Assembly (NCBI RefSeq): GCF_004124325.1
Contig: NZ_QBDT01000001.1
Coordinates: 6,200,001 to 6,264,000, forward strand
From: Streptomyces sp. L2
GTDB lineage: Bacteria > Actinomycetota > Actinomycetes > Streptomycetales > Streptomycetaceae
Reading direction: 5' to 3'
Length of the DNA stretch: 64,000 nt
Shown: in pieces, positions 13,291 through 17,066 of the stretch
Position numbering within the stretch: the stretch's first letter is position 1
Layout: the number at the start of each line of letters is the position of its first letter
Position numbers and translations under genes: made by a program
Notes under the pieces: generated by a model
What the model was told of the DNA's origin: nothing
The model's input: only the letters and a program-made list of their open reading frames with translations
The model's database searches: none

Positions 13291-13704
13291 TCAGGTGGTG
13301 ATCTCCGGGCAGTACGTGCCAAAGCTCCAGATGTTGCCCTCGGCGTCGCGGGCCATGTAGTCCCGGGAGCCGTAGTCCTGGTCCGTCGGGGGCATCACGA
13401 TCTCCACGCCGTGCTCGACGGCCCGCTGGTGGTGGGCGTCGACGTCGTCCACGGCGATGTACACCCCCGTCGGGCCCGCGTCCTTCATCACCGTGTCGAA
13501 CAGCCCGCCGCGGCCCTTGGAGCCCAGCATCACCGCGCCGTTGCCCTGGGCCAGCTCGGCGTGCATCACCTTGCCGTCCTCCGTCTCGTACACCGACAGC
13601 TCCGTGAAGCCGAGGCCTTCCGTGAGCTGCCGGATCGCCGCCTTCGCGTCCGCGTACAGCACCGTCGGATAGATGCTGGGCCGTCCGCCGCCCGTGCCTG
13701 CCAT
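13291..13704 (-). CDS. VOC-family (glyoxalase/bleomycin-resistance fold) protein
   Basis: 137 residues, a single vicinal-oxygen-chelate domain. IYPTVLYADAKAAIRQLTEG is the first beta-alpha unit, GAVMLGS sits mid-domain, and RDYMARDAEGNIWSFGTY is the usual C-terminal signature of the PhnB-like branch. The function could be a metal-dependent enzyme or a ligand-binding/resistance protein; the sequence does not decide. ATG 13704 has GAGGGAG about 9 bases upstream. It is a single gene, transcribed away from the ABC-F gene. Confidence 0.9.
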   Translation of the reverse strand: MAGTGGGRPSIYPTVLYADAKAAIRQLTEGLGFTELSVYETEDGKVMHAELAQGNGAVMLGSKGRGGLFDTVMKDAGPTGVYIAVDDVDAHHQRAVEHGVEIVMPPTDQDYGSRDYMARDAEGNIWSFGTYCPEITT

Positions 13705-13874
13705 GCCGATCACTCCCTCGTGATTCCGGTCGTCCGATGCCCGCCATTCAGCATCGCAGCCACCACTGACAACGCCCCCGCCGAGCGCGCCGCGCCGCCC
13801 CGCCCCCCGAACGGACGACGCACCCGCGGCCACCCGCCACCGGGCGTGCCGGAAAACCGCTTGCCCGGCCCCGT

Positions 13875-13880
13875 TAGACT
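13875..13880 (+). promoter_or_regulatory. -10 box of a leaderless transcript
   Basis: TAGACT lies 6 bases before the ATG of the MAILLAH frame, so the predicted transcript would start at or next to that A. No good -35 hexamer is visible at 17-18 bases; the only TTGCCC lies too close. Leaderless transcripts are frequent in Streptomyces. Confidence 0.55.
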
Positions 13881-13886
13881 TGGCCC

Positions 13887-13910
13887 ATGGCCATTCTCCT
13901 CGCGCATTAG
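13887..13910 (+). CDS. Leader peptide MAILLAH upstream of ABC-F gene
   Basis: Seven codons and TAG encode MAILLAH. The ATG is placed where a leaderless message from the adjacent -10 box would begin, and the frame ends 58 bases before the ABC-F start. After the stop, GGCGG (13913-13917) can pair with either of two CCGCC strands (13930-13934 or 13937-13941), so alternative hairpins are possible. Upstream reading frames that sense ribosome inhibitors control several antibiotic-resistance ABC-F genes in other bacteria; that this one does so is inference. Confidence 0.5.
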   Translation: MAILLAH

Positions 13911-13968
13911 ACGGCGGGAACGTCCTCAGCCGCCCACCGCCAATCCCCGTACGCCCTGGAGTCTGTCC

Positions 13969-15567
13969 GTGATCTCCGCCTCCGGTATCGAGCTGCGCGC
14001 CGGTGCCCGCATCCTCATCGAGAACGCCACCTTCCGCGTCGCCAAGGGCGACCGCATCGGCCTGGTCGGCCGCAACGGCGCCGGCAAGACCACCCTCACC
14101 AAGTGCCTGGCCGGCGAGGGCATCCCGGCAGCCGGCCAGATCGCCCGCTCCGGCGAGGTCGGCTACCTGCCCCAGGACCCGCGCACCGGCGACCTGGACG
14201 TCCTCGCCCGCGACCGCATCCTCTCCGCGCGCGGCCTCGACGTACTGATCCGCAAGATGCGCGACAACGAGCAGCGCATCGCCAACGGCCAGGGCGCCAC
14301 CCGCGAGAAGGCCCTGCGGCAGTACGAGCGCCAGGAGACGGAGTTCCTCACCAAGGGCGGGTACGCCGCCGAGGCCGAGGCCGCCACCATCGCCGCCGCG
14401 CTGAACCTGCCCGACCGCGTGCTCGGCCAGCCCCTGCACACGCTCTCCGGAGGCCAGCGCCGCCGTATCGAGCTGGCCCGCATCCTGTTCTCCGACGCGG
14501 ACACCCTGCTGCTCGACGAGCCGACGAACCACCTCGACGCCGACTCGATCATCTGGCTGCGCGACTACCTGAAGACCTACCGCGGCGGCTTCATCGTGAT
14601 CTCCCACGACGTCGACCTGGTCGAGACGGTCGTCAACAAGGTGTTCTACCTGGACGCCAACCGCGCCCAGATCGACGTCTACAACATGGGCTGGAAGCTC
14701 TACCAGCAGCAGCGCGAGGCCGACGAGAAGCGCCGCAAGCGGGAGCGGGCCAACGCCGAGAAGAAGGCCGCCGCCCTGCACTCGCAGGCCGACAAGATGC
14801 GCGCCAAGGCCACCAAGACCGTCGCCGCGCAGAACATGGCCCGCCGCGCCGACAAGCTCCTGGCCGGCCTGGAGGCGGTCCGCCAGTCCGACAAGGTCGC
14901 CAAGCTCCGCTTCCCCGACCCGTCCCCCTGCGGCAAGACCCCGCTGATGGCCGAGGGCCTGTCGAAGTCGTACGGCTCCCTGGAGATCTTCACCGACGTC
15001 GACCTGGCCATCGACAAGGGCTCCCGGGTCGTCATCCTCGGCCTCAACGGCGCCGGCAAGACCACCCTGCTGCGCCTCCTCGGCGGTGTGGAGACGCCCG
15101 ACACCGGCGAGGTCGTCCCCGGTCACGGCCTCAAGCTCGGCTACTACGCGCAGGAGCACGAGACCCTCGACCCGGACCGCACGGTCCTGGAGAACATGCG
15201 CTCGGCCGCCCCCGACATGGACCTCGTCGAGGTCCGCAAGGTGCTCGGCTCCTTCCTGTTCTCCGGTGACGACGTCGACAAGCCGGCCGGGGTCCTCTCC
15301 GGCGGCGAGAAGACCCGCCTCGCCCTGGCGACCCTGGTCGTCTCCTCCGCCAACGTGCTGCTGCTGGACGAGCCGACGAACAACCTCGACCCGGCCAGCC
15401 GCGAGGAGATCCTCGGCGCACTGCGCACTTACAAGGGCGCCGTCGTCCTCGTCACCCACGACGAGGGCGCCGTGGAGGCACTCCAGCCCGAGCGGATCAT
15501 CCTGCTGCCGGACGGCGTCGAGGACCTGTGGGGCGCCGACTACGCGGACCTCGTCGCCCTCGCTTGA
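13969..15567 (+). CDS. ABC-F family ATPase (ribosome-associated)
   Basis: 532 residues with two ABC domains and no membrane segments, hence the ABC-F class that acts on ribosomes in translation or antibiotic protection. Domain 1 has Walker A GRNGAGKTT, signature LSGGQRRR and Walker B DTLLLDEPTNHLD. The inter-domain linker (about 240-320) is Lys/Arg-rich and coiled. Domain 2 has GLNGAGKTT, LSGGEKTR and VLLLDEPTNNLD. Both catalytic glutamates are present. GTG 13969 has GGAG 7 bases upstream and gives the usual ISASGIELRAG start. The open frame extends far upstream but only as non-coding DNA. From memory it corresponds to SCO1840. Specific drug or ribosome partner unknown. Confidence 0.93.
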   Translation: MISASGIELRAGARILIENATFRVAKGDRIGLVGRNGAGKTTLTKCLAGEGIPAAGQIARSGEVGYLPQDPRTGDLDVLARDRILSARGLDVLIRKMRDNEQRIANGQGATREKALRQYERQETEFLTKGGYAAEAEAATIAAALNLPDRVLGQPLHTLSGGQRRRIELARILFSDADTLLLDEPTNHLDADSIIWLRDYLKTYRGGFIVISHDVDLVETVVNKVFYLDANRAQIDVYNMGWKLYQQQREADEKRRKRERANAEKKAAALHSQADKMRAKATKTVAAQNMARRADKLLAGLEAVRQSDKVAKLRFPDPSPCGKTPLMAEGLSKSYGSLEIFTDVDLAIDKGSRVVILGLNGAGKTTLLRLLGGVETPDTGEVVPGHGLKLGYYAQEHETLDPDRTVLENMRSAAPDMDLVEVRKVLGSFLFSGDDVDKPAGVLSGGEKTRLALATLVVSSANVLLLDEPTNNLDPASREEILGALRTYKGAVVLVTHDEGAVEALQPERIILLPDGVEDLWGADYADLVALA

Positions 15568-15633: not shown

Positions 15634-15902
15634 TCCTCGTATCGAGGTGTGTCGTACACGTATTTCGCGGCCGATCCCTGCTGTGCCAAGGGGTCGGCCG
15701 CCGTGCTGCGCTGACCTGGCTCTTTGCGGAACCACTCGTTCGGCTGTACGGACGCCACCTCGCGGAATCCCGGATTCCGCATGTGGGGACGCGCTCCTGT
15801 CGTCACAACCTTGTCCCACGGACCTTGCCGAATGGGTGGCCATCCCGCCCCGGAGGGGTGATCATGAGGAGACCAGAGCGCACTTCCCATGAGGAGGCAC
15901 GG

Positions 15903-16124
15903 GTGGCCGAGACTCTGAAGAAGGGCAGCCGGGTGACCGGCGCCGCGCGCGACAAGCTCGCGGCAGACCTGAAGAAGAAGTACGACTCCGGTGCGAGCAT
16001 CCGGGCGCTGGCCGAAGAGACCGGCCGCTCGTATGGCTTCGTACACCGGATGCTCAGCGAGTCGGGCGTCACGCTCCGTGGGCGTGGCGGAGCGACCCGG
16101 GGCAAGAAGGCCGCTACGTCCTGA
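15903..16124 (+). CDS. gbn: GATC-binding nucleoid-associated protein Gbn
   Basis: 73 residues, basic, beginning VAETLKKGSRVTGAARDKLA. Residues about 17-60 form a helix-turn-helix (DSGASIRALAEETGRSYGFV), and the tail is RGRGGATRGKK. Length, sequence character and neighbours (ABC-F before, enoyl-CoA hydratase after) match SCO1839 of S. coelicolor, described as the actinobacterial nucleoid protein Gbn, which binds GATC sites and affects development. GTG 15903 has GAGGAGG 5 bases upstream. An in-frame ATG at 15864 with GGAGG 7 bases upstream would add 13 residues (MRRPERTSHEEAR); both starts have good ribosome sites, so two forms are possible. Confidence 0.88.
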   Translation: MAETLKKGSRVTGAARDKLAADLKKKYDSGASIRALAEETGRSYGFVHRMLSESGVTLRGRGGATRGKKAATS

Positions 16125-16262: not shown

Positions 16263-17066
16263 ATGGCTTCGCCCGACCAGGACCTCGCTCCTGTACTCGA
16301 CAAGGACGGCGTACGGCTCACCGTCGACGACGCGCTCGCGACGGTGACGCTGACCAATCCGGCCAAGCGCAACGCGCAGAGCCCCGCTTTGTGGCGGGCG
16401 CTGGCCGAGGCGGGCCGGCTGCTGCCGGGCACCGTCCGTGTCGTGGTGCTGCGCGGCGAGGGCCGTTCCTTCTCCGCCGGGCTGGACCGTCAGATGTTCA
16501 CCCCGGAGGGGATCGAGGGCGAGCCGTCCTTCATCGATCTCGCGCGCCGTGACGACGCCGGGCTCGACGCGACCATCGCCGAATTCCAAGAGGCGTTCAC
16601 CTGGTGGCGGCGCAACGACATCGTGTCTATCGCCGCCGTCCAGGGGCACGCCATCGGGGCCGGCTTCCAGCTCGCGCTGGCGTGCGATCTGCGGGTCGTC
16701 GCCGATGACGTGCAGTTCGCCATGCGCGAGACCAGCCTGGGCCTCGTCCCCGACCTGACCGGCACGCATCCGCTGGTCGGGCTGGTCGGGTATGCCCGCG
16801 CGCTGGAGATCTGCGTGACCGGGCGGTTCGTGCAGGCGGAGGAGGCGGTGGCGTCCGGGCTGGCGAACCTCGCGGTGCCGGCGGGGGAGCTGGAGGGGGC
16901 GGTGCGGGATCTTGCGGCGGCGGTGCTTGGCGCTCCGCGGGACGCTGTCGCTGAGACCAAGGCGTTGTTGCGGGGGGTTGCCGGCCGTTCCTACGACGAG
17001 CAGCGGGCTGCTGAGCGGGCTGCTCAGGGGCGGCGGTTGCGGGAGCTGGCCGGGCTCGGCGAATGA
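16263..17066 (+). CDS. Enoyl-CoA hydratase/isomerase family protein
   Basis: 267 residues of the crotonase fold. LTNPAKRNAQSPALW is the early substrate-loop motif, the first oxyanion-hole strand is GEGRSFSAGLD, and the second is AVQGHAIGAGFQLALACDLRV, followed by ETSLGLVPDLTG. The glutamate equivalent to catalytic Glu144 of rat hydratase appears replaced in GFQLALA, while the ETSLGL glutamate (Glu164 position) is present. Hydratase, isomerase or another crotonase activity cannot be told apart. ATG 16263 has GGAGG 6 bases upstream. Downstream is a REP-like element and the Asp23 cluster. Confidence 0.92.
   Translation: MASPDQDLAPVLDKDGVRLTVDDALATVTLTNPAKRNAQSPALWRALAEAGRLLPGTVRVVVLRGEGRSFSAGLDRQMFTPEGIEGEPSFIDLARRDDAGLDATIAEFQEAFTWWRRNDIVSIAAVQGHAIGAGFQLALACDLRVVADDVQFAMRETSLGLVPDLTGTHPLVGLVGYARALEICVTGRFVQAEEAVASGLANLAVPAGELEGAVRDLAAAVLGAPRDAVAETKALLRGVAGRSYDEQRAAERAAQGRRLRELAGLGE

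Follow-up and report, generated by a model that had tools for sequence, protein, structure and literature searches.

A short upstream open reading frame (uORF), seven codons long and probably leaderless, precedes the gene of an ABC-F protein in Streptomyces sp. L2, and this frame is likely, in our view, to act as a translation attenuator that responds to its own occupancy by ribosomes. The locus lies in a window of 64,000 nucleotides (nt) of contig NZ_QBDT01000001.1, and all coordinates given here are positions within that window. The mini-frame, ATGGCCATTCTCCTCGCGCATTAG, occupies 13887-13910 on the plus strand and by translation encodes MAILLAH followed by a stop, with its ATG at 13887. It is separated by 6 nt from a -10 box, TAGACT (13875-13880, plus strand), and its stop lies 58 nt before the GTG of the ABC-F gene at 13969. 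An earlier note on this DNA had described the box, the seven-codon frame and the 58-nt interval, and all three were confirmed at the positions it gave.

The promoter was examined in 101 distinct Streptomyces leaders, a set without duplicates in which frame and gene are separated by at most 95 nt. Upstream of the -10 box lies the block GAAAAC-CGC-TTGCCC (13852-13866, plus strand), in which GAAAAC sits at the -35 position with a spacer of 17 nt to TAGACT. The -10 box read TAGACT in 67 leaders, TAGAAT in 29, TAAACT in 4 and TACAGT in 1, and the promoter logo showed the A run at 82-98% per position and TTGC at 93-99%. The composite pattern GAAAA-N4-TTGC-N10-TAGAMT (13852-13880) had a single match in the 8.07 Mb genome when up to one mismatch was allowed. 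Promoters activated by WblC are described as GAAAWY, 3 bp, TKGMNN, 16-19 bp and TANNNT, and most of the starts at such promoters in S. coelicolor lie 7-8 bp past the -10 box (PMC7157823). Because of these distances and the gap of 6-7 nt between -10 box and ATG, transcription would start on the A of the mini-frame ATG or on an adjacent base, and the frame would be leaderless. A WblC/WhiB7 promoter was considered, and both the box and the -35 element match in sequence, but the spacer from TTGCCC to TAGACT is 8 nt instead of 16-19 and no alternative TANNNT was found 6-21 nt beyond the putative -35; a WblC promoter is therefore not claimed. Simple scans of the window stretch reported no sigma-70-type promoter.

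We investigated the conservation of the frame at homologous loci, retaining the best 80 of 593 candidates. A frame of 7-10 codons, 6-7 nt past a -10 box, was present at all 77 Streptomyces/Streptantibioticus loci among these best 80; locus L041 was unparsed in the main frame scan, and its frame was recovered in separate leader analyses. The three Kitasatospora loci carried other mini-frames: two had MAECHTHV, which stops 14 nt short of the start used, and the third had MAVSPGH. Additional loci of the family that includes Streptomyces (f1), in which four genomes are present twice, had the frame in 44 of 45 cases, the remaining one (L205) being unparsed. Dinucleotide-shuffled upstream regions of eight f1 loci yielded zero such frames. 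In the 101 distinct leaders the frame started with ATG in every case, ended with TAG in 100 and had seven codons in 94, and the gap between -10 box and ATG was 6 nt in 54 and 7 nt in 47, under a pattern that permitted 5-8 nt and with a gap sequence that was itself variable. The mini-frame is unremarkable to simple scans alone and stands above chance because it is conserved. The earlier note's picture of a conserved, probably leaderless frame is thus borne out, and the frame was unbroken in all loci parsed, close relatives included. Upstream of the other ABC-F genes in the Streptomyces sp. L2 genome, a leaderless mini-frame was absent from the five of six loci that were parsed, with starts guessed by script.

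The sequence CTCC, spanning codons 4-5 (13896-13899, plus strand; frame nt 10-13), is nearly invariant and is the complement of GGAG, the ABC-F Shine-Dalgarno (SD) sequence, which lies 7 nt before the GTG (13958-13961, plus strand) and is itself nearly invariant in the leader alignment. RNAalifold, run on 47 leaders, returned a consensus made of these CUCC:GGAG pairs and of a second set, AUGG:CCGU, alone, with each pair present in 44-46 of the 47 sequences; AUGG opens the mini-frame (13887-13890, plus strand) and its predicted partner CCGU overlaps the ABC-F start codon (13967-13970, plus strand). Across the 101 leaders, the SD paired with the frame at a mean probability of 0.93, compared with 0.34 when the frame was shuffled, and the frame formed 12.3 pairs with the ribosome-binding site (RBS) versus 5.2 for shuffled frames, the real frame scoring higher in 98 of 101. 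The cost of opening the RBS was 11.1 kcal/mol in the free leader versus 7.7 with shuffled frames. A ribosome modelled at the 5' end by masking the first 16 nt brought this cost to 6.1 kcal/mol, with a drop of more than 2 in 96 of the 101 leaders; a control mask gave 10.5 kcal/mol and such a drop in 14. The SD unpaired probability rose by more than 0.1 with the 5'-end ribosome in 58 leaders and fell in two. Of the three measures used (accessibility, SD unpaired probability and opening cost), opening cost separated the cases better. These models suggest, by prediction only, that the leader fold hides the ABC-F ribosome-binding site, which is not clear in every other family.

The region between the mini-frame and the SD is predicted to form an inner hairpin. 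Past the mini-frame stop, the mean folding energy was -13.9 compared with -10.4 for shuffles, with z below -1 in 68 of the 101 leaders and with arm sequences that vary across relatives. In the window, GGCGG, just past the stop (13913-13917, plus strand), is able to face either CCGCC at 13930-13934 or CCGCC at 13937-13941 (both plus strand), and the predicted fold of the window leader (L081) uses the second copy. The earlier note had pointed out that pairing with one or the other arm makes two exclusive hairpins possible. The leader RNA can indeed adopt exclusive states, and both arms exist; as the main switch, however, the comparative evidence favours pairing of the frame with the SD and start region over the GGCGG/CCGCC choice. 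In the modelled structure GGCGG forms an inner helix that can coexist with frame:SD pairing, and either CCGCC copy can supply its 3' arm. A search for a known RNA family in the leader gave sR53 as the sole match, with an E value of 0.44, which is at chance level.

To separate constraint on the peptide from constraint on the RNA, codon differences were counted against the consensus. The 33 distinct seven-codon frames showed 32 synonymous and 49 non-synonymous differences, counts that come from related sequences and are not independent events. Changes at codons 2 and 5 were mostly silent. Codon 4 was CTC in 90 of the 94 seven-codon frames, while the ABC-F gene itself uses 38 CTG versus 30 CTC. 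Codon 3 encoded eleven different amino acids, yet its third base was T in 84 of 94 (13893-13895), and codon 7 likewise had a third-base T, regardless of amino acid, in 87 of 94 (13905-13907). The codon usage of the ABC-F gene contrasts with that of the mini-frame, with 0 ATT versus 24 ATC and 0 CAT versus 7 CAC. The third-base T of codons 3 and 7 might reflect either slow codons or an RNA constraint. At codon 6 the amino acid changed and the second base was variable, with a third-base G kept in 91 of 94. Among the residues, Ala2 was found in 91 of the 94 frames, Leu4 in 90, Leu5 in 88, and His or Asp before TAG in all 94. No run of Cys was found in the mini-frame; MAILLAH has no Cys, and of the 94 frames three had a Cys, always at codon 3. 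Judged from these codon patterns, RNA constraint on the mini-frame of the window gene is clear and peptide constraint is partial or weak.

A second ABC-F gene, a 62% identical paralogue, carries a frame of its own. It was present in 38 of 293 genomes of the order at E <= 1e-250, being sporadic in Streptomyces and found also in genomes of families f3 and f19 (L274-L284 and L286-L315). We examined 36 paralogue genomes, comprising 30 loci from the 38-genome set, of which eight gave no locus, and six others. A leaderless frame preceded the paralogue in 35 of the 36 (34 parsed, L311 by eye), and in L288 it was not located. The peptides were mostly MSTPRIS or MSTPRVS, with I, V or M at residue 6, and in the 34 parsed loci the frames lay 53-83 nt upstream. 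The 27 distinct frames showed 41 synonymous versus 15 non-synonymous differences, a pattern in which peptide-level selection appears clear and stronger than in the window gene. The expectation that the peptide would be kept through synonymous changes thus fits the paralogue, and for the window gene it gave a mixed result.

The helix of the paralogue frame with ATCCGGAGCGT covaries, with compensatory changes at two of the ten frame:SD pairs, as scored on a helix that was read from those same sequences and with two of the 34 leaders excluded by the length filter. Pair 15-76 was AU in 18 leaders, GC in 7, CG in 1, GU in 1 and unpaired in 5, and pair 16-75 was AU in 22, GC in 6, GU in 3 and unpaired in 1. 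Over the 15-pair structure, 15 cells were changed on both sides compared with 5.0 in shuffles (0 of 500 reached this value) and 0-4 in slid controls, and 89.4% of cells were paired compared with 34-53% in the slid controls. Permuting the SD pieces among the 28 distinct paralogue leaders gave 235.3 paired cells (sd 1.9) versus the real 245, a value reached in 0 of 5,000 permutations, and RNAalifold recovered the frame:SD helix unprompted. In the 34 loci, the modelled 5'-end ribosome lowered the cost of opening the RBS from 11.8 to 4.3 kcal/mol, compared with 11.7 under the control mask, and the drop exceeded 2 in 32 loci with the ribosome and in one with the control.

Leaderless mini-frames were also found across the class. 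Outside f1, a strict pattern detected one 30-140 nt upstream of the ABC-F start in 41 of 128 loci, in 12 families, where shuffles predict 0.1; the count excludes ten loci that were too short or whose start was not parsed, and its list of -10 hexamers was compiled after the hits of an earlier scan had been seen. The f35 frame is marginal (VDP, three codons, 8 nt spacing). The peptides are unrelated between families, with MRTPD, MMPVAD, VPSVRTP and VLRCEP as examples. In family f3, nine of 13 loci (L143-L150 and L156) have TAAAAT 8 nt before the ABC-F GTG itself; the ABC-F gene is apparently leaderless there and has no mini-frame, so that its control would be of another kind. Frames paired with their own RBS at -14.5 kcal/mol, versus -10.9 (sd 0.6) with the RBS of other families (0 of 50,000 permutations), and this preference persisted when the loci that had suggested the idea were left out, and without f1. 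Real frames outpaired shuffled ones in 12 of 13 families and 38 of 46 loci (7.6 versus 4.1 pairs; p = 0.00024). For opening cost in the families outside f1, the comparison of free with masked leaders gave p = 0.10 and that with the control p = 0.046, and the drop was mainly in f2, f9, f11, f19, f22 and f30. The modelled evidence for frame:RBS pairing outside f1 is mixed.

Several results weigh against the attenuator interpretation or its extension to the class. At the window locus, the fold of 13887-13990 was no better than shuffles (z 0.50), and the pairs of the window gene show no covariation because they hardly vary. With the 5'-end ribosome the SD unpaired probability rose from 0.02 to 0.17, and the control mask alone gave 0.11; the accessibility of the RBS over -14 to +3 barely shifted across 13 families (0.48 to 0.51). 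In the paralogue, two of the ten frame:SD pairs often fail (15-76 unpaired in 5, 17-74 unpaired in 23), and the number of pairs with double changes, three, was matched by 84 of 500 shuffles. Outside f1, 87 of the 128 loci had no such frame, the opening cost fell by more than 2 in 15 of 39 loci, as against three under the control mask, and the free opening cost was above the shuffled-frame cost in 23 of 39. Other upstream windows paired with the RBS equally well or better in several families, f1 included (mean fraction 0.36), and the three families fetched after the idea arose gave 0.17 alone in the own-RBS pairing test.

The mechanism that we favour can be described as follows. Without a bound ribosome, the leader is predicted to fold so that about the first 16 nt of the mini-frame pair with the ABC-F SD and start region, aided by the inner hairpin, and the ABC-F gene would be poorly translated. 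A 70S ribosome initiating on the 5'-terminal AUG would cover those nucleotides and the helix would open; on so short a frame, a ribosome at any position would cover CUCC or its surroundings. Normal ribosomes would traverse the seven codons fast and depart, and ribosomes detained on the start codon or the first codons after it, as by drugs that target the peptidyl transferase centre, would keep the ABC-F start open. The ABC-F protein made would then rescue the held ribosomes, closing a feedback loop. The quantity sensed would be mainly ribosome occupancy of the very short frame, and the identity of the peptide would add fine tuning, more so in the paralogue. More tentatively, and with somewhat less than even confidence, we suggest that leaderless mini-frames across the class, remade repeatedly with unrelated peptides, use their own RNA as an antisense lid on the RBS of a core actinobacterial ABC-F gene and meter the dwell of 70S ribosomes on the 5'-terminal AUG, providing a gauge of initiation and early elongation and not a drug-specific arrest peptide. 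A leaderless frame doubling as the antisense strand of the RBS would be a very compact sensor in which leaderless initiation is given a regulatory role, and it is relevant to how a core ribosome-protection gene might be induced in Actinobacteria.

The most serious competitor, though an improbable one, is peptide-specific arrest, of which MsrDL and ErmCL are cases: a nascent MAxLLx[HD] would stall with a given drug or at termination, and the fold would merely read this out. The near-constant Ala2, Leu4 and Leu5 and the invariable His or Asp before TAG speak for it, as does the retention of MSTPR[IVM]S through silent changes in the paralogue, whereas the 49 non-synonymous changes among 81 codon differences in the window gene, and the unrelated peptides of families that share the architecture, speak against it. 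Transcription attenuation in the leader, intrinsic or Rho-dependent, has been reported or proposed for antibiotic-resistance ABC-F genes, including lmrC, are5sc and tiaA of Streptomyces (PMC8546547, PMC12421871), and the region past the mini-frame stop is C-rich and apparently untranslated. No terminator-like site was found in 13700-14050, however, and the conserved pairing extends to the SD and start codon, which such control would not need; we regard this explanation as quite unlikely on its own. Translation and transcription attenuation could coexist, by analogy with cplR (PMC10201436).

Two simpler explanations dispense with sensing. Ribosomes finishing the mini-frame might simply reinitiate at the ABC-F start, and this coupling fits much of the same sequence data, the ABC-F start having its own SD 58 nt downstream; that distance is long for direct reinitiation, and the conserved antisense relation would be left unexplained, so that we give simple coupling little credence. 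Least probable of all, the frame might have no function, the start of a conserved promoter merely coinciding with an ATG. A review describes leaderless genes as common in Streptomyces, and the promoter block is itself strongly conserved; this explanation is hard to reconcile with the fixed length and stop of the frame, the occurrence of distinct frames in the paralogue and in 12 further families, and the compensatory pairing. The occupancy-driven attenuator is the reading that we retain.

The downstream gene (13969-15567, plus strand) encodes a 532-aa protein that scored 389.6 bits against NCBIfam NF000355, above the cut-off of 380, and contains two ABC_tran stretches and ABC_tran_Xtn. The score and the tandem ABC domains agree with the earlier note's classification, and on sequence grounds the protein is an ABC-F of the ribosome-protection type; its closest solved match by sequence is PoxtA. 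A six-frame NF000355 search at E <= 1e-100 listed another ABC-F of the same genome and not the window gene. Matches to the ABC-F were found in 90 of 98 sampled genomes at E <= 1e-150 and in 303 of 314 at E <= 1e-218, a distribution that marks it as a core protein of the class.

Downstream of it lie a gene for a small HTH_58 protein (15864-16124, plus strand; Pfam PF19575) and an enoyl-CoA hydratase/isomerase family gene (16278-17066, plus strand; PF00378), a neighbourhood shared with a locus of family f6. There, a 65% identical ABC-F gene lies between the enoyl-CoA hydratase gene and the small HTH_58 gene, followed by thioredoxin; in locus L272 the ABC-F start is 12 nt past the hydratase gene, and the mini-frame was found in none of the three f6 loci. 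We take f6 to be mycobacterial, and its hydratase/ABC-F/HTH_58 order presumably matches that of Rv1472-Rv1473-Rv1473A. The window ABC-F probably belongs to the Rv1473/OcrA family, an assignment made via the f6 homologue and not by direct comparison with Rv1473. Rv1473 is reportedly controlled by WhiB7. ABC-F factors of the present type have been linked to protection of the ribosome from oxazolidinones and phenicols. On the other side of the mini-frame, a PF00903 glyoxalase-family gene (13291-13704, minus strand) is divergent and shares the same intergenic region.

The ermC and cat-86 translation attenuators also have a leader frame and an RBS that is hidden in a fold and freed by a stalled ribosome; the window mini-frame differs in being leaderless, only seven codons long and itself antisense to the SD. 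The closest parallel for an ABC-F gene is cplR of Clostridioides difficile, which has a very short uORF (MRI, three codons) and whose SD is inaccessible under repression until a ribosome stalls on the uORF, with translation attenuation shown by reporters (PMC10201436). In cplR the SD is sequestered by a terminator stem and transcription is attenuated as well; the window leader showed no terminator, has a leaderless frame and would use that frame's own RNA as the antisense strand. Streptomyces lmrC, are5sc (MLV) and tiaA (MVGDDDISG) also have a short frame before an ABC-F gene and are induced by ribosome-bound drugs; they differ in their terminator/anti-terminator folds and in having frames with ribosome-binding sites, with leaders of 194-232 nt for are5sc and tiaA, and they belong to another subfamily (ARE5) and have other peptides (PMC8546547, PMC12421871). 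Toeprinting showed start-codon stalling on the S. coelicolor uORFs are5scL1 and tiaAL (PMC12421871), which makes early stalling on the window mini-frame plausible.

Among Actinobacteria, the mycobacterial leaderless polycysteine uORF attenuators (Canestrari 2020; PMC9031893, PMC13236596) likewise combine a leaderless short frame with control of a downstream gene via ribosome speed, but they answer to cysteine through Cys codons, whereas the window frame has no Cys run and would control an ABC-F gene. For the protein itself, the probable relative Rv1473/OcrA of M. tuberculosis (PMC9159947, PMC12633451) is reported to confer drug resistance, and its knock-down sensitised M. tuberculosis to linezolid (PMC9159947); probably of the same protein family, it differs from the window gene in that the f6 loci lack the mini-frame. 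In the open-licence literature we found no report of the window leader, nor any of ABC-F genes preceded by leaderless frames or of a leaderless frame acting as the antisense strand of an RBS. Work on cplR has already established that an ABC-F gene can be under translation attenuation; what the present leader adds is a leaderless frame that would serve as the antisense strand.

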